From Streptococcus oralis Uo5 (GTDB lineage: Bacteria > Bacillota > Bacilli > Lactobacillales > Streptococcaceae), in NCBI RefSeq assembly GCF_000253155.1, contig NC_015291.1, positions 1,149,001 through 1,213,000 of the forward strand: 64,000 nt of DNA, given 5' to 3'. Below, in pieces: positions 33,239 to 39,660 of this stretch. The position numbers were made by a program, and so were the translations under genes. A model generated the notes under the pieces. The model did no database searches and was not told the origin of the DNA. It saw nothing but the letters and a program-made list of their open reading frames with translations. How positions within the stretch are numbered: the stretch's first letter is position 1; each line of letters starts with the position of its first letter.

Positions 33239-33619
33239 TTATTTTTCACGAATCACTTCGACCTTGTAGCCATCAGGATCCTTGACAAAGTAATAGTTTG
33301 GTTGAGTTCCTGGAAGTCCATTAGGGGCTGTCACCTCATAGCCTTTAGCGCTATGTTCTTGATGTAGCGCCTCAAGATCAGGTGTACTGAGGGCGATATG
33401 GGCGAAGCCATCTCCTACCACGTAAGGACCGTGGTCATAGTTATAGGTCAATTCCAACTCGTAGTCATCACCCTCAAGTCCTAGATAGACAATCGTGAAG
33501 GCATGATCTGGAAAATCTCTGCGACGCAATTCTTTAAAACCAAAAGCATCTTGATAGAATGCGATTGATTTTTCAAGGTTTTCTACTCGCAAGCAAGTGT
33601 GTAGCATTTTTGAAGCCAT
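33239..33619 (-). CDS. gloA: Lactoylglutathione lyase / VOC family protein
   Basis: A 126-residue VOC metalloprotein that matches glyoxalase I in its paired beta-alpha-beta-beta-beta modules: MLHTCLRVENLEKSIAFYQDAFGF, the metal ligands in ELELTYNYD and FAHIALSTPD, and KDPDGYKVEVIRE. The likely role is methylglyoxal detoxification, perhaps with another thiol, as streptococci vary in glutathione. Three in-frame ATGs lie within 18 bp; the one at 33619 has GAGGT 7 nt upstream and gives the usual length. Confidence 0.88.
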   Translation of the reverse strand: MASKMLHTCLRVENLEKSIAFYQDAFGFKELRRRDFPDHAFTIVYLGLEGDDYELELTYNYDHGPYVVGDGFAHIALSTPDLEALHQEHSAKGYEVTAPNGLPGTQPNYYFVKDPDGYKVEVIREK

Positions 33620-33716
33620 TTTCATTACCTCTTTCATTTGAATAGTTCTATTATACCTTTATTCAGGAAAATTTACTAGGAACTTGAACCAGAGTCATCT
33701 TCTCTAGGTTATCATT

Positions 33717-36488
33717 CTATGCAGAACTTTTACGATTTTCCTTGCGTATATTGCGAATAAGGAAAAGCAGGATAAGGACAAAAAGTCCCTCTAGGAAGTA
33801 GAAAGCAAATTCGCTATTCAAGATTAGTAAATCTCTGTTAAAATATTTGTTACCGAAAACTGAATTTGGTGCAAATAGGATTCGCAACAGTCTTCTTAGG
33901 AAAATAAAGATCTGCAAGCCATAAATCATAAAGACCTTCTTCACACCAATCATGAAACCTTGTTCCTTTGTAAAATAAGACAAAGCAATTCCATTTAACA
34001 AGAGAATAACCGTTATGGCCAGAGTTTCATTTCGTAGAATAGTTGGATCAAAGATGTCTAAACGGCTGTGAATGTAGGGCAACGTTTGAAAGAGTAAGAT
34101 TCCCAAGATTGCTGGTATGAAAATTTTCTTCAGAGATGGTGGAAATCCAGGACTAAATCTTGTAAAAGATAAGCAAATCACAAGGATTGCAAAAATATGG
34201 AAGTAAGCTATGGCAACTCCTGAAATAGTCTGGCTTTGATTTACCAAAGCAGAAAGAAAACCAGCAGAAAGAAAGATACCAACAGGAATCAGCTTCTCCA
34301 AAGAATAATCCCACTTCAGCCCCTGACTCACTTGAAAACCATCGATGAAGCTGAAAAATGTAATGAACATAAGGGCACCAATGAGACCAAATGGTAAGGA
34401 TGGAATGACGAGGGTTAATAACAAGATTAGTAGGAACCATGGATGAGGACTGTAGTAGAATTTTCGTTTTTCTCCCCTAGCAGTCACTCCTTCCTCAATC
34501 GGTGTTTTCCTCAATTTTAGCATATAGACGTAAAAGAGAGAAAACATACCAGCATGGACCCATAAATTATCAATAGGTTGCTCTAGAACACTGAGTATCA
34601 AACTCACAATCGAAAATAGACCAAAGACAATCTGAAGAAACTTATTTTTAAAGACCTGTCTTTTTTTCCAATCCAAATAAGAGAGCTTGGCCTTTGGATG
34701 ACTAAGTTCATAAGCATAAACTGTCATCTCTTCTAGTTTCTGGTCTGTCTCCTCCGTCATCATTTGGGGAGCCATTTTAGAAGTAGGAAAAGGAGCTAAA
34801 ACATATCTCAGGAGATCGCCATCTGTAAATCGATGGTACTCCTTATAGATTTGTTGAAGCAAAATCGTTAGAATGCGTGGTCTTCCTTTAAAGTAGCTTC
34901 TCCACTTTTCCCAATCATTGATATCTTCATCGCTCTTGGTGAGCTTATCCATATAAAGATAACCTTCATTGTACCAGTAATCAAAATTTTCCTTTTTGTC
35001 TAGTTCATACTCCTCTACCACTGAAGGATAGGAATGGATACTCTTCCAGAAATGGAGTTTTTTCAGGTAAGGATTTGATTCCTCATCGCTGTAACGCTCC
35101 ACAAATTGGAGAACGAGTGCTAACACTTTCGCATTGGTTAAAGGATAGACATCCACCTTTTCTAATAAATCAAGTAGGAGAGTATGATCCTTAACTGTTT
35201 CAAAAAGATATTGCCAATCACGTAACAGTTTGTACTCGTCTTGATAGCGAGCATGGAGCAACTCATAGAAGGCTGCCTCAACTTCATCTGGATTATCTAG
35301 AGAGTAGTGACTAAAGTCAACGTTTTCTCCCAGCTCCTCTTTTACTTCTTCTAAGTAATCAGCCAAGTCATTCAAGAGTGGATAATCCTCTTCAAATATG
35401 ACTTGTCGGTTTTTTTCAAGGATATAGCTTAAAACAGGAACGCTCTTGATTATTTGACGATTCTGATTTACTTGATCCAAGACCATAAAGCTCAGATAGG
35501 GGTGCTTGAAAAATTCTATCCAAGAGCTCAATTGATTTGCTTTGTTAAAATCATGGAGAATTTCTTGGCAAAGTTTATAAGAATAATAGAATTCTTCAGT
35601 GGCTTCATGGGCGCTTTCAAGCGAACTGCCTTCCTCTTCTGCTATAGCTCTTTTAACTTTCCAATACTTCAGTTTATAGTAATAGCTCCAGTACTTAAAG
35701 TCAGGTATATAGCCTTCTAGCAAGGGAATGAGGATAGAGAATTGCTCCGGTTTGTTAAAAATATAAACATCCATTTCCTCTAAAACGGATTGAACAATGT
35801 CCATATCATACTGATACTGATGAAAGAACTGACGCCATAGATGCTCTTGTTCTTCTGGACTGTAATCATCATTTTTAACAATACTTTCAATCGCATTTCG
35901 GATCAGATAAGTTTCTTCATTATAACCGCTAAAGTCAAGAGTAGACCTTGTTAATCCTTCTTGCCCCTGGTTCTCTTCATTATCAAACGTTTCAAAATTG
36001 AGGGGATTCGTAGCTCTTTCTTCAGAATCTCCATTTAGCTGAACTTCCTCATCATAGTCACTAAAGTCAAGGGTGGACTTTTGCTCATCCTCTTCCGCTT
36101 TAAAGGTTTCAAAGTTAAAGGAATTGCTTGTTTTATCAGTTGATTGCTGATAATCACTAAAATCAAGACTAGATCTTTCAGACTCTTCGTTCTCAGTCTT
36201 CGTTTCTTCAGTTAAGTTTTCAAAGTTGAGACTAGAGTTAGGCTTTCCATTCGCCTCTTCTTCAAGTTCAGTAGCTTCTTGAGAGTCACTCGCTTTTCTT
36301 AGGCTATTTTCTGGTCTTGTGTTTCTAGACCTCGCATAAGTCAAGGCTTTTTGGTAAGCTTCAACAATTTCTTGGTAAATTTCTGGTTGGTCTTCTGGGT
36401 GATAGAGCCGAACCAGTTCAGCATAACGCCTTCTAATAAGCTTGACGTCAGTCGTTGGCTCTATCCCTAAAGTTTCCCATATATTCAT
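33717..36488 (-). CDS. Membrane J-domain protein with repeated LDFSDY/LNFETF motifs
   Basis: A 923-residue protein. An N-terminal J-like domain (1-52) has HPED (30-33) where canonical J-domains have HPD. A disordered acidic linker (about 60-195) carries three copies each of SLNFENL-like (86-92, 123-129, 162-168) and SLDFSDY-like (107-113, 139-145, 183-189) motifs. A long helical region (about 195-610) and 8 or so membrane helices (about 615-915) follow. It starts 13 bp after the Hsp70 gene with AGGAG upstream, so the pair is one operon. The layout recalls the membrane J-protein partners of HscC in enterobacteria (DjlB/DjlC), but I know no function for this version. Confidence 0.8.
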   Translation of the reverse strand: MNIWETLGIEPTTDVKLIRRRYAELVRLYHPEDQPEIYQEIVEAYQKALTYARSRNTRPENSLRKASDSQEATELEEEANGKPNSSLNFENLTEETKTENEESERSSLDFSDYQQSTDKTSNSFNFETFKAEEDEQKSTLDFSDYDEEVQLNGDSEERATNPLNFETFDNEENQGQEGLTRSTLDFSGYNEETYLIRNAIESIVKNDDYSPEEQEHLWRQFFHQYQYDMDIVQSVLEEMDVYIFNKPEQFSILIPLLEGYIPDFKYWSYYYKLKYWKVKRAIAEEEGSSLESAHEATEEFYYSYKLCQEILHDFNKANQLSSWIEFFKHPYLSFMVLDQVNQNRQIIKSVPVLSYILEKNRQVIFEEDYPLLNDLADYLEEVKEELGENVDFSHYSLDNPDEVEAAFYELLHARYQDEYKLLRDWQYLFETVKDHTLLLDLLEKVDVYPLTNAKVLALVLQFVERYSDEESNPYLKKLHFWKSIHSYPSVVEEYELDKKENFDYWYNEGYLYMDKLTKSDEDINDWEKWRSYFKGRPRILTILLQQIYKEYHRFTDGDLLRYVLAPFPTSKMAPQMMTEETDQKLEEMTVYAYELSHPKAKLSYLDWKKRQVFKNKFLQIVFGLFSIVSLILSVLEQPIDNLWVHAGMFSLFYVYMLKLRKTPIEEGVTARGEKRKFYYSPHPWFLLILLLTLVIPSLPFGLIGALMFITFFSFIDGFQVSQGLKWDYSLEKLIPVGIFLSAGFLSALVNQSQTISGVAIAYFHIFAILVICLSFTRFSPGFPPSLKKIFIPAILGILLFQTLPYIHSRLDIFDPTILRNETLAITVILLLNGIALSYFTKEQGFMIGVKKVFMIYGLQIFIFLRRLLRILFAPNSVFGNKYFNRDLLILNSEFAFYFLEGLFVLILLFLIRNIRKENRKSSA

Positions 36489-36501
36489 AAGGTCTCCTCT
36501 T

Positions 36502-38166
36502 TTACAGTCCTCGCTCTAGGAAGTCTAGATAGTTTGAAAATGATTGATAGAGTTTTGGCAAATGATACATAGATGCTTGGCTGACCTCTTCTTCAAATCG
36601 TCTAGTTTCAGCCATTAGCTCATCTCTTCTTCTCCCCAAGAGCATACTGTACACGCGATTCGCTTTTTCAATCAAGAAGCGATAAACCTCTGTTTCTTGA
36701 GCATTGATCTTATAGCGAGTCAACTCTGCTTGCTTAGCCTTGATTTCCTTTTCTGTCAGAGTAACACTATCTTGGAGAATAACATGACTAAAGACTTCCT
36801 GTGTTGAATCAATTTTCACTTCGACATCCAAAATCCCATTTAAATCATAGGTAAATCGAACTGTGAAACTTTCATTTACTCGAGTATTCACAGGGACGGG
36901 AACTTCTAATTCTCCTAGAAACAGATTTTGTGATGCCTTCATCATCTCACCTTGATAGACCTTTATCTTGACCTGACTCTGTCCCAATTCAGCCGTATAG
37001 TACTGCTCGATGCGTGAAGCAGGGAGGGTAGAATTTCTCTCAATAATCGGCGAAAAGCGGTCGCCAACTATTTCTATCCCCAGTGTAAAAGGACAAATAT
37101 CAGACAGTAATAAATCTCGTATCTCACCTTGCCGCTCTTTTATTCCTGCTAAAAGGGCACAACCTCTCGCAATCATCCGATCGGGATCATCCGAAACCTG
37201 CACCACTTGATTGATACAGTAGGATAAAAAGTCCTGAACCAAGCGGAGTTTCGAAGTCCCCCCAACAAGAACAAAGTTATCTGATGATACATAGCTATAG
37301 CGCGCATCCATCAAGGCACGGTCCAAAACAGCCTTAACACGTGCTAGCAGAGGTTGACAAAGCTCATAAAAGCGTTGGTAGCTCAAGTCTAAAGTGTATT
37401 CTTGTTCTTGGTCCAGAACTGTCATCTTCACTTCTTCTTTATCATTGAGTTCTAGCTTTGTCTTTTCAGCCTGTACCAGAATCTTACTATAAAATTCTCG
37501 GGAAATCGTATCCTTGGTTAATTGATTGGAGGCTAAAAATTCCTCAGCAATAGCCGCAGTAAAGTCTTCTCCTCCCAATCGATTGTCCCCTGCAATCGAC
37601 ACGATTTCGACGATATTATCAAAAAGCTCTACAACTGAAATGTCTAGAGTCCCACCACCAAAATCGACTACAATAAAAGATTGATCTTCTTGGTTTACCA
37701 TAGATCTTTTAGCAAGAGCCGCTGCGGAAGGTTCATTGATAATCCGATCAATCTGAACGCCTGCAAATTTCCCTGCTAGTTTGGTCGCATAGCGTTGAGC
37801 ATCGTTGAAATAGGCTGGTACACTGACAATCACTTCCTCAACCTTTTCTCCAAGATAGGTTTCTGCATCGTCTACCAACTTTCGAATGATAAAGGAGCTT
37901 AATTCTTCAGCCTTATATGCTCGATTTCCTAGCGTTAACTCATGTTTGGTCCCCATAAAACGCTTGAACTGAGAAACCGTCTTATCTGGGTAGGTCACCA
38001 AGCGTTCCTTAGCAATTTTTCCAACTATAATCTCATCATTGTCATCTAAAGCCACAACAGAAGGAGTCAAATACTCACCAAAAGCATTGGGAATCAACTT
38101 GACCTGACCATCTTGATAAACCCCTACTAAAGAATTAGTCGTTCCTAAATCAATACCTACTATCAT
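36502..38166 (-). CDS. Hsp70-family chaperone, HscC-like
   Basis: A 554-residue Hsp70: ATPase motifs IVGIDLGTTNSLVGV (phosphate 1), FIVVDFGGGTLDISVV (phosphate 2) and FVLVGGTSKLRLVQ (adenosine), a DnaK-type linker DLLLSDICPFTLGIE, a beta substrate-binding domain and a shortened helical lid. It is shorter than housekeeping DnaK (about 610) and close to HscC (about 556). It has no signal peptide, grpE neighbour or CIRCE site. The next gene encodes a membrane J-domain protein. The ribosome-binding site is modest (GGAG 10 nt away). Confidence 0.85.
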   Translation of the reverse strand: MIVGIDLGTTNSLVGVYQDGQVKLIPNAFGEYLTPSVVALDDNDEIIVGKIAKERLVTYPDKTVSQFKRFMGTKHELTLGNRAYKAEELSSFIIRKLVDDAETYLGEKVEEVIVSVPAYFNDAQRYATKLAGKFAGVQIDRIINEPSAAALAKRSMVNQEDQSFIVVDFGGGTLDISVVELFDNIVEIVSIAGDNRLGGEDFTAAIAEEFLASNQLTKDTISREFYSKILVQAEKTKLELNDKEEVKMTVLDQEQEYTLDLSYQRFYELCQPLLARVKAVLDRALMDARYSYVSSDNFVLVGGTSKLRLVQDFLSYCINQVVQVSDDPDRMIARGCALLAGIKERQGEIRDLLLSDICPFTLGIEIVGDRFSPIIERNSTLPASRIEQYYTAELGQSQVKIKVYQGEMMKASQNLFLGELEVPVPVNTRVNESFTVRFTYDLNGILDVEVKIDSTQEVFSHVILQDSVTLTEKEIKAKQAELTRYKINAQETEVYRFLIEKANRVYSMLLGRRRDELMAETRRFEEEVSQASMYHLPKLYQSFSNYLDFLERGL

Positions 38167-38201: not shown

Positions 38202-38207
38202 ATTATA
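38202..38207 (-). promoter_or_regulatory. Candidate -10 of the Hsp70/J-protein operon
   Basis: TATAAT about 36 bp before the Hsp70 start, with no clear -35. It lies after the rplT terminator, so the pair seems to have its own promoter. Confidence 0.5.
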
Positions 38208-38279
38208 CAGGAAATATCCTATTTTCTTTGAAAAAATCTGTGATTTACTCTCTAAAATAGAAAATCGTTTAAGGAAAAT

Positions 38280-38332
38280 AAAAAAGTTTCACCCTACTCT
38301 TGCGGTAAAAACCACGAGAGTAAGAATGAAAC
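38280..38332 (-). terminator. Terminator of the infC operon
   Basis: A long hairpin on the minus strand (outer arms GTTTCA/TGAAAC, middle ACTCT/AGAGT-like, inner GTGG/CCGC with G-U) followed by TTTTTT, just after rplT. Confidence 0.85.
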
Positions 38333-38341
38333 AGTTTGTCA

Positions 38342-38701
38342 TTATTTACCAAGTTTTGCTTTAGCTGCATCTGCAAGAGCTGTGAAAGCTGCTGCATCGT
38401 TAACAGCCAAGTCAGCAAGCATTTTACGGTTAACTTCGATTTCAGCCAATTTCAAACCATGCATCAATTGTGAGTATGAAAGTCCGTTCAAACGAGCTGC
38501 CGCATTGATACGAGTGATCCACAATTTACGGAAGTCACGTTTTTTCTGACGACGGTCACGGTATGCATAGTAGTAAGAGTTCATTACTTGTTCTTTTGCA
38601 GTACGGAACAAGATGTGTTTAGCTCCATAGTAACCTTTTGCTAATTTAAGAATACGTTTACGACGTTTGCGTGATACAACGCCACCTTTAACACGTGCCA
38701 T
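38342..38701 (-). CDS. rplT: 50S ribosomal protein L20
   Basis: A 119-residue protein with the basic N-terminal extension [26 protein letters not shown] and the globular part [31 protein letters not shown]20 binds 23S rRNA early in 50S assembly and often represses its own operon through the leader. The ATG follows TTGGAGG. It is the last gene of infC-rpmI-rplT. Confidence 0.98.
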
Positions 38702-38752
38702 GTTTTATTTCCTCCAAATATTTCCTAGAATTGTTTACTTACTGTCAGGCTA

Positions 38753-38953
38753 TTATTTCAAGCGAGTAAGCATTGCTTTGATACGTTTGAAATCTCCTGA
38801 ATGCACCATAGATGCTTTACGAAGATGACGACGTTGTTTCTTAGTTTTTCCGTGGAAACGGTGAGAAGTGTAAGCACGGAAACGTTTAAGTCCACCAGAA
38901 CCTGTACGTTTGAAACGTTTAGCTGATGCGCGGTGTGTTTTTTGTTTTGGCAT
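38753..38953 (-). CDS. rpmI: 50S ribosomal protein L35
   Basis: A 66-residue basic protein beginning [20 protein letters not shown], the family signature. The ATG follows TAAAGGAG. It lies between infC and rplT, 51 bp from rplT. Confidence 0.98.
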
Positions 38954-38985
38954 GATTTTTTCTCCTTTATTTAACTTTCTGACAA

Positions 38986-39507
38986 TTATTTTTTGTCAGT
39001 TGCTGGCGCCAACTGCATGAACATTTGGCGTCCATCCATCTTAGCTCGTTGTTCGATGATCGCAATATCTTGTGTTGCTTCAGCAAACTCAGCTAAAACT
39101 TTTGCACCAATCTCTTTATGGGTAATCATACGACCCTTAAAGCGAATAGATACCTTAACTTTATTTCCTTTTTCAAGGAACTTGCGTGCATTGCGAAGTT
39201 TTGTGTCAAAGTCACCCTTGTCAATAGTTGGACTCAGACGAACTTCTTTCACAGTAACAACACTTTGTTTTTTACGTTGTTCTTTTTGCTTTTTCTGATA
39301 CTCAAATTTGAACTTACCGTAGTCCATAATTTTAGCAACAGGTGGTTTTGCTTGGGGTTGAATCAATACTAAGTCAACATTTGCACTATCAGCCAATGCT
39401 TGCGCTTCGCTGAGTGGCTTGATGCCTAGCTGTTCTCCCTCAAGACCGATCAAGCGAACTTCACGTACACGAATTTCATCATTGATGAATAAGTCTTGCT
39501 TTGCTAT
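38986..39507 (-). CDS. infC: Translation initiation factor IF-3
   Basis: IF-3 binds the 30S subunit, keeps it from joining 50S and proofreads the start codon. The product contains [37 protein letters not shown] and the C-terminal domain [19 protein letters not shown] place the start at ATA (39507) because AGAGGTG lies 6 nt upstream and the protein then starts IAKQDLF, matching IF-3 N-termini, with 173 residues. GTG at 39516 and TTG at 39543 (the longer forms I recall for homologues) are alternatives but have weaker or no ribosome-binding sites. A non-standard start on infC is known in other bacteria (AUU) and lets IF-3 limit its own synthesis. Confidence 0.9.
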
Positions 39508-39519
39508 GGTTTTCACCTC

Positions 39520-39660
39520 TTTTTTATTATTAGAGAAAAACAATAGCGGACTCGTAATGATACAAGCCCGCACGTTATGATAGCGTTTCTTAGAAACTTT
39601 TCATCCGTAGGGCCAGGCAACTTGATGTCACAAGGCGAGAAGCTCTCACTTCTGCTTTTC
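39520..39660 (-). promoter_or_regulatory. infC leader with transcription attenuator
   Basis: The minus-strand leader includes a perfect 10-bp RNA stem (arms GCGGGCTTGT and ACGAGTCCGC, two G-U pairs, loop ATCATT) followed by TATTGTTTTT, 30 nt before the Shine-Dalgarno site, and a further structured region upstream. This fits an L20- or IF3-operon leader that stops transcription early. The identity of the ligand is inferred. Confidence 0.7.

Follow-up and report, generated by a model that had tools for sequence, protein, structure and literature searches.

A probable HscC-type Hsp70 and membrane J-protein pair in Streptococcus oralis Uo5 and some of its relatives

A stretch of 64,000 nucleotides of the Streptococcus oralis Uo5 genome (GCF_000253155.1, contig NC_015291.1, positions 1,149,001 to 1,213,000; the window in the following) carries two adjacent reverse-strand genes, one for an Hsp70 of 554 amino acids (36502..38166) and, after a gap of 13 bp (36489-36501), one for a membrane J-protein of 923 amino acids (33717..36488), in exact agreement with the lengths, coordinates and strand of the original prediction, which a model had made from the sequence alone. 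The two genes probably encode an Hsp70 and a cochaperone dedicated to it, a pair of the HscC/DjlC kind; this reading is drawn from the phylogenetic tree, the alignment, the HPE-type J domain, the co-occurrence and adjacency of the genes, the domain order and purifying selection. Since the genome scans returned two genes of the Hsp70 family and an equal number of Pfam J domains, a private chaperone pair would be the simple reading, and the proposed separateness from DnaK-DnaJ held in those steps that sequence can test. The ordinary grpE-dnaK-dnaJ cluster of the same genome lies elsewhere, at about 363-367 kb; it likewise combines an Hsp70 with a J domain, but has an HPD J domain and a GrpE signature, and its Hsp70 is 35% identical to the one in the window.

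The Hsp70 and its J-protein neighbour

The Hsp70 matches PF00012 with 393 bits, and no NCBIfam model reached its cut-off for it or for the J-protein. A maximum-likelihood tree of 46 proteins splits with support 100/100 into a side of eight rows with DnaK and HscA and a side of 38 rows that unites the window Hsp70 with other second Bacillota Hsp70s, E. coli HscC and Duffyella HscC; E. coli HscA and HscC and Duffyella HscC were among the proteins that drew a long-branch warning. In a quick tree, all 37 Hsp70s recovered from later loci (38 had been intended) were placed on the HscC side with a support of 0.873, HscA standing apart from DnaK at the root. The comparison with HscC that had originally been drawn for the protein, and its separateness from DnaK, are upheld by the maximum-likelihood split. 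Its length lies inside the range of the HscC subfamily (550-580 amino acids; about 555 in E. coli HscC, b0650), and the GrpE signature (DnaK 290-295), present in S. oralis DnaK, is replaced by a gap at the same columns as in E. coli HscC. Both proteins share a 14-column gap in the lid, in line with the helix B deletion of the subfamily under an approximate helix assignment, and a DICP interdomain linker (LLLSDICP in the window, ILTDICP in E. coli HscC, LLLDVTP in DnaK). The window Hsp70 is 37% identical to E. coli HscC; its identity with E. coli DnaK is 31%. It also has the deletions described for DnaK 76-101 and the D211 loop, but S. oralis DnaK shows both of them too, and they do not tell the two kinds apart.

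The second protein combines an N-terminal J-like domain with about eight C-terminal membrane helices, as had been predicted. Its J domain (residues 1-52, 36333..36488) matches PF00226 over residues 3-46 with 23.5 bits, below the Pfam cut-off of 27.8, and the same stretch scored 28.2 bits, above the cut-off, in the whole-genome scan. It aligns with E. coli DjlB and DjlC (b0646 and b0649) at equal loop length, with W-x-x-L-x-I near the start and then YHPEDQP against HPETDP; HPED stands in place of HPD, and the loop behind it is six residues shorter than the one after HPD in E. coli DnaJ. All 20 streptococcal J-proteins found have kept HPE, which is described, in the accessible part of PMC13254874, as the only HPD replacement that seems to be tolerated and as known from DjlB and DjlC. 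The ATPase of HscC is stimulated by DjlC and not by DnaJ, CbpA or HscB, according to the available portion of a review by Mayer (PMC8215388). No Pfam match to DnaJ_C or a zinc domain was found in the J-protein and TIGR02349 reached 11 of 377 bits, which, together with HPE instead of HPD, would place the protein outside DnaJ classes A and B.

Behind the J domain follow a disordered acidic linker (residues 57-189, 35922..36320), an all-helical domain (residues 190-612, 34653..35921) and a polytopic membrane domain (residues 613-923, 33720..34652), in which hydropathy gives eight segments between residues 617 and 911; seven to nine were counted in the other 15 close relatives. AlphaFold2 modelled the J domain as three helices, with values of the predicted local distance difference test (pLDDT) of 73-86 in blocks over residues 1-50, and the linker as devoid of structure (blocks of 22-31, all below 50). 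When the middle part was folded alone, its mean pLDDT was 71.4, with blocks of 74-92 over the first 250 residues. Neither the whole protein nor its middle domain had a PDB match at E <= 0.001 in Foldseek, and the best VIA-align Z score for the latter, 9.1 (8wqh_A, 96 residues, 2.5 A), lies inside the range of the tool for unrelated helical proteins. A known fold was rejected for the middle domain, the matches staying at the level of helical repeats with no specific PDB relative, and as modelled it looks like a helical repeat. The portion from residue 190 on (734 amino acids) had matches in four of 295 Lactobacillales genomes, all of them carriers, and two further short, weak matches (E 2.2e-4 and 4.5e-4) were chance-like; among the genomes searched, the C-terminal part thus appears only in carriers of the streptococcal clade.

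Purifying selection acts on both genes, and in most comparisons it is weakest on the linker. Against the window, the ratio of nonsynonymous to synonymous substitution rates (dN/dS) of the Hsp70 was 0.026-0.071 in all ten pairwise comparisons, which argues that the pair is more than a chance arrangement. Within the J-protein, the ratio was 0.09-0.33 for the middle part, 0.16-0.24 for the membrane part and 0.16-0.61 for the linker, values with dS above 1 in part of two distant comparisons being unreliable, and in each of the ten comparisons dN was lower in the J domain than in any of the other three parts. These comparisons left out five of the 15 close relatives (L036, L041, L045, L046 and L047). 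In L039 and L040, the middle domain is two to four times more diverged from the window (dN 0.16, dS about 0.5) than the linker and the membrane part, a pattern such as the recombinational exchange of a segment would leave.

Distribution in Streptococcus and layout of the locus

In a sample of 147 Streptococcus genomes, including that of the window, the J-protein search matched 20, 16 of them along most of the protein and the remaining four over no more than the end with the J domain. The same 20 genomes stood out in the search with the Hsp70 (best E <= 3.7e-128; the best E of the remaining 127 did not get below 1.3e-93), and the mapping of co-occurrence that the original prediction had asked for thus yielded a single set of carriers for both genes. 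It had also named, as what would overturn it, the presence of the pair in all streptococci together with a published function; 127 of the 147 genomes lack a J-protein match, and literature searches pairing HscC or J-domain protein with Streptococcus gave no published function of the pair among the matches listed. The accessible literature on HscC in Firmicutes with DnaK likewise contained nothing on this system.

In 15 of the 16 close carriers, the window included, the pair is located between rplT and gloA; the sixteenth, L044 (G035), has it away from this junction and its gloA on another contig. In all 19 non-carriers obtained from the best 30 gloA loci fetched, rplT and gloA are separated by a gap of 56-59 bp, with gloA 96-98% identical. 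The two-gene unit is accessory and patchy, as this empty junction shows, and the cautious wording of the original prediction that it may be so proved right. A midpoint-rooted tree of 1338 columns, built on three flanking genes, agrees with a patchy pattern. The window and L034-L043, which are the 11 carriers in its S. oralis part, form a grade rather than a clade. Non-carriers, 17 in number, make up a group that joins beside L035 with a low support of 44; it also takes in two more carriers, L047 and L048 (support 100 for the group, or 96 if L183 is dropped). The carriers L045 and L046 group with the non-carriers L189 and L190. Seven named contigs were found, four of them named S. oralis and matched by four of these 11 carriers, and one each of S. 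peroris, Streptococcus sp. HPH0090 and a contig labelled S. pseudopneumoniae. The best-placed named relative of the J-protein, among the 120 of 685 matches listed, is an S. oralis 'J domain-containing protein'. Carriage on a phage or plasmid was rejected, the three plasmid and three phage records with matches covering no more than 19% of the J-protein.

The J-proteins of the distant streptococcal pairs L050, L051 and L052 (G131, G136 and G006) are soluble, with no membrane segment by hydropathy. In the same genomes, the Hsp70 gene is followed, in the same orientation, by a gene for a membrane protein with five to seven segments and no significant Pfam match, and G006 has two such separate genes.

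In the window, the pair lies between the glyoxalase gene gloA (33239-33637) and the rplT/infC genes (38342-39573), the site that had been predicted. The boundaries claimed at the same time were confirmed on the upstream side, where an extended -10 element TGTATAAT (38202..38209), recognised by its match to the consensus, is preceded by a terminator-like hairpin after rplT (38286..38332; -25.1 kcal/mol, z -5.45), both on the reverse strand. The -10 element is unchanged in all 13 aligned upstream regions from the 15 carriers at the junction, L036 and L041 having been left out of this alignment. The downstream boundary could not be confirmed, as a fold test (z 0.12) and a pattern scan found no terminator in the interval between the J gene and gloA. 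Transcription may therefore read through from the J gene into gloA, which has a -10-like TATAAT of its own at 33650-33655. With consensus patterns, no CIRCE heat-shock site was found in the window at up to three mismatches, and three CtsR-like sites, one of them inside the Hsp70 gene, were found against 5.15 expected by chance; heat-shock control of the pair was rejected on these grounds.

Related pairs in other Bacillota and the linker motif

An HscC profile search was positive in 24 of 295 Lactobacillales genomes, in eight of 348 Bacillota genomes (one DnaK dropped) and, in two further orders picked because each holds a carrier, in six of 245 (order of G729) and 27 of 246 genomes (order of G637). 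The samples share a few genomes. L152 (G478), which exceeded the profile threshold, is a DnaK with an HPD DnaJ as its neighbour and was taken out of the counts; 37 of the 38 new places in the last two orders were fetched, G950:C15 being left out. A J-like gene adjoins the HscC-type Hsp70 gene at 76 of 84 loci, with 20/20 in Streptococcus, 18/20 in other Lactobacillales, 6/7 in other Bacillota and 32/37 in the last two orders. Among the 77 J domains of these partners (one locus has two), 57 carry HPE, NPE or SPE and five HPD, and several have lost HP altogether. The partners in other Bacillota, e.g., L117, L148 and L203, resemble the streptococcal pair in the adjacency of an HscC-type Hsp70 and a degenerate J domain. 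Many of them have one membrane segment or none, and a helical domain is common to them (hhalign E 7.2e-13 and 1.1e-9). Barriot et al. are said to have surveyed bacterial J-proteins in 2020, and HscC in Bacillota may be in print there; its presence in Bacillota is not claimed as new here.

HPD is kept in L117-L120 and L130, and other partners of the same order have HPE, IPD, NID, VTD, RAD or DLE; these loci and their variants form a natural series for working out which of the contacts between Hsp70 and J domain count. L127 has a tandem linker variant L-x-W-[QS]-D, seen in its J-protein sequence, and L128 was listed likewise; in both (G245 and G308), an extra open reading frame (ORF) of 451 amino acids lies just upstream of the HscC-type gene, with a J-like start in L127. 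A further record, L191 (MT835719.1, 4689-13910), is labelled Bacteriophage sp. and comes from human faeces, but looks like a bacterial contig. Behind its gene for an HscC-type Hsp70 come those for two J-proteins, in which the J domains read NPEEHP and the linkers contain the motifs FDFSNV, LDFSSA and FDFSSL.

The linker of the window protein contains six copies of a short motif (LNFENL, LDFSDY, FNFETF, LDFSDY, LNFETF and LDFSGY), of which the loose form, hydrophobic-[DN]-F-x-x-hydrophobic, was expected 0.08 times in shuffles. Two to nine copies are present in 17 of the 20 streptococcal J-proteins, and L049, L051 and L052 have one each, which is near chance (p 0.034-0.060). The copy number differs between strains and is tracked by the length of the J-protein (879-1001 amino acids); in one genome, a tandem unit of 39 residues is present three times. 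The loose motif had been defined on the streptococcal proteins before it was tested on 33 partners of the two other Bacillota orders, nine of which contain it (reached in three of 5000 shuffles; seven of 30 without three near-duplicates, reached in 35 of 5000). A strict form, [DN]F[ST], occurs in eight of the 33 against a shuffle mean of 0.58 and in none of 28 control regions of the same proteins; this form, and W at the first position, were chosen after viewing the 33 partners, which makes it no blind test. The second J ORF of L220 (HPD, 3.2 kb away) was left out of the motif tests, and so were both L191 J-proteins, since L191 had been found with the window protein itself. The 24 non-streptococcal partners from the Lactobacillales and Bacillota surveys count against the motif (strict 0/24; loose 2/24, the chance level).

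E. coli DnaJ has a similar stretch, ADFSDI at residue 88, behind its J domain, which we take to be the one that holds the DIF motif. Cajo et al. are said to have studied this motif of DnaJ in 2006. According to a speculative and rather improbable proposal, the disordered linker would serve as a multivalent array for docking. If the motif docked on the J domain or the HscC-type Hsp70, the number of chaperones brought together, or the extent to which the J domain is restrained, would depend on the copy number, and a true docking array would make the pair a GrpE-free Hsp70 machine at the membrane that is tuned by repeat number.

Proposed working of the pair and its alternatives

As a dedicated pair of the HscC/DjlC kind, the J-protein would sit in the cytoplasmic membrane with its J domain facing the cytosol and would capture and stimulate only the HscC-type Hsp70 and not DnaK, the Hsp70 cycling without GrpE. 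The client would be selected by the helical and membrane domains and would most likely be a membrane protein or a complex handled at the membrane, and the pair might act as a local device for quality control or remodelling. What can be gathered from the accessible sources on the E. coli counterpart is that HscC has cadmium and UV phenotypes and no identified client, that a membrane-protein function has been suggested for it with DjlB/C (PMC8215388), and that it showed no ATP-dependent client binding or refolding (Kluck et al., cited in PMC8910936). The window J-protein resembles DjlC and DjlB in its N-terminal HPE J domain, the W near the start, the short loop and the attachment to the membrane, and this part of the likeness that had been drawn originally stands. 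As far as the sequence tells, it does not extend further: the protein is not recognisable as an orthologue outside the J domain, and DjlB and DjlC have 475-483 amino acids and are tail-anchored (PMC8215388, as far as accessible), whereas the streptococcal protein has 923, a motif-bearing linker and about eight segments by hydropathy instead of a single C-terminal anchor. The gene order differs as well, hscC and djlC being convergent neighbours in E. coli and the window genes co-directional. The pair would hence be a variant of the HscC/DjlC kind, with a J domain and an Hsp70 of that kind and an attached membrane protein that is not detectably so.

Several results weigh against this reading. 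The insertion of four to eight residues that HscCs are described to have in L1,2 of the substrate-binding domain SBD-beta (PMC8215388, accessible part; four residues in E. coli) is absent from the window Hsp70 in the alignment and missing in eight of nine streptococcal HscC-type rows, L049 alone having one; since the protein falls on the HscC side of the tree but lacks this insertion, it is best called HscC-type and not HscC proper. DnaK Q378, which contacts the HPD aspartate, is retained in E. coli HscC but corresponds to a leucine in the window. No J gene was found next door at eight of the 84 HscC-type loci, one of which is on a 4.3-kb contig. The full-length AlphaFold2 model is poor (mean pLDDT 52.2; predicted template modelling score, pTM, 0.29), the membrane part behind the helical middle part having blocks of 29-64. 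No relation of the middle domain to the partners from other Bacillota was detected in seven hhalign comparisons (E 0.14-0.73), nor to DjlB, DjlC and the Duffyella protein (E 0.46), at a sensitivity that may miss distant homology. The analogy to the working of DjlC would thus extend only to the J domain and the membrane attachment.

The main alternative, which we regard as a tentative possibility, is that the membrane domain is itself the working part, e.g., a transporter, a sensor or a lipid-handling protein, and that it has the HscC-type Hsp70 to itself for regulation or assembly; client and cochaperone would then be fused in one protein. The three genomes G006, G131 and G136, in which a soluble J-protein is accompanied by a separate membrane gene as if both did the job of the fused protein, would fit this explanation, as would the restriction of the fused C-terminal part to carriers. 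However, no relation was established between the fused membrane part and the separate genes of these genomes (hhalign probability 7%, 56 columns), no transporter family matched at the thresholds used in Pfam, NCBIfam and PHROGs, and many of the other partners show one membrane segment at most. It is unlikely that the protein is a pseudo-J tether whose HPE-bearing J domain binds the Hsp70 with its Q378L exchange without stimulating it and merely concentrates it at the membrane. Pseudo-J proteins are a recognised class (PMC13254874, accessible part) and the rarity of canonical HPD among the partners, together with the complete loss of HP in several, would suit a tether, but DjlC stimulates HscC with the same HPE (PMC8215388, accessible part), and both the conservation of HPE in all streptococcal members and the consistently lowest dN of the J domain argue against a domain that has lost its activity. 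A function in anti-phage defence or for a mobile element is highly improbable despite the accessory, patchy cassette at one fixed site, given the strong purifying selection, the lack of a PADLOC match for either protein at E 0.01, for which a defence system was rejected, and the ORFs of the locus, among which no recombinase gene stood out, although no search was aimed at recombinases or junction repeats.

Under the dedicated-pair reading, the compact two-gene version of HscC/DjlC, accessory and with an empty allele in close relatives, would be a clean system that offers strains with and without the pair, one extra Hsp70, one J-protein and no GrpE signature. The oral commensal host is naturally transformable. 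The pair further suggests that a J domain of the HPE type can be carried over from one membrane protein to an unrelated one and still keep its Hsp70 as partner, and the surveyed loci supply the study of Hsp70-J specificity with a large number of natural J domains that lack canonical HPD. Some oral streptococci would thus have a second, specialised Hsp70 with a private membrane-bound partner at one fixed spot that is empty in close relatives.

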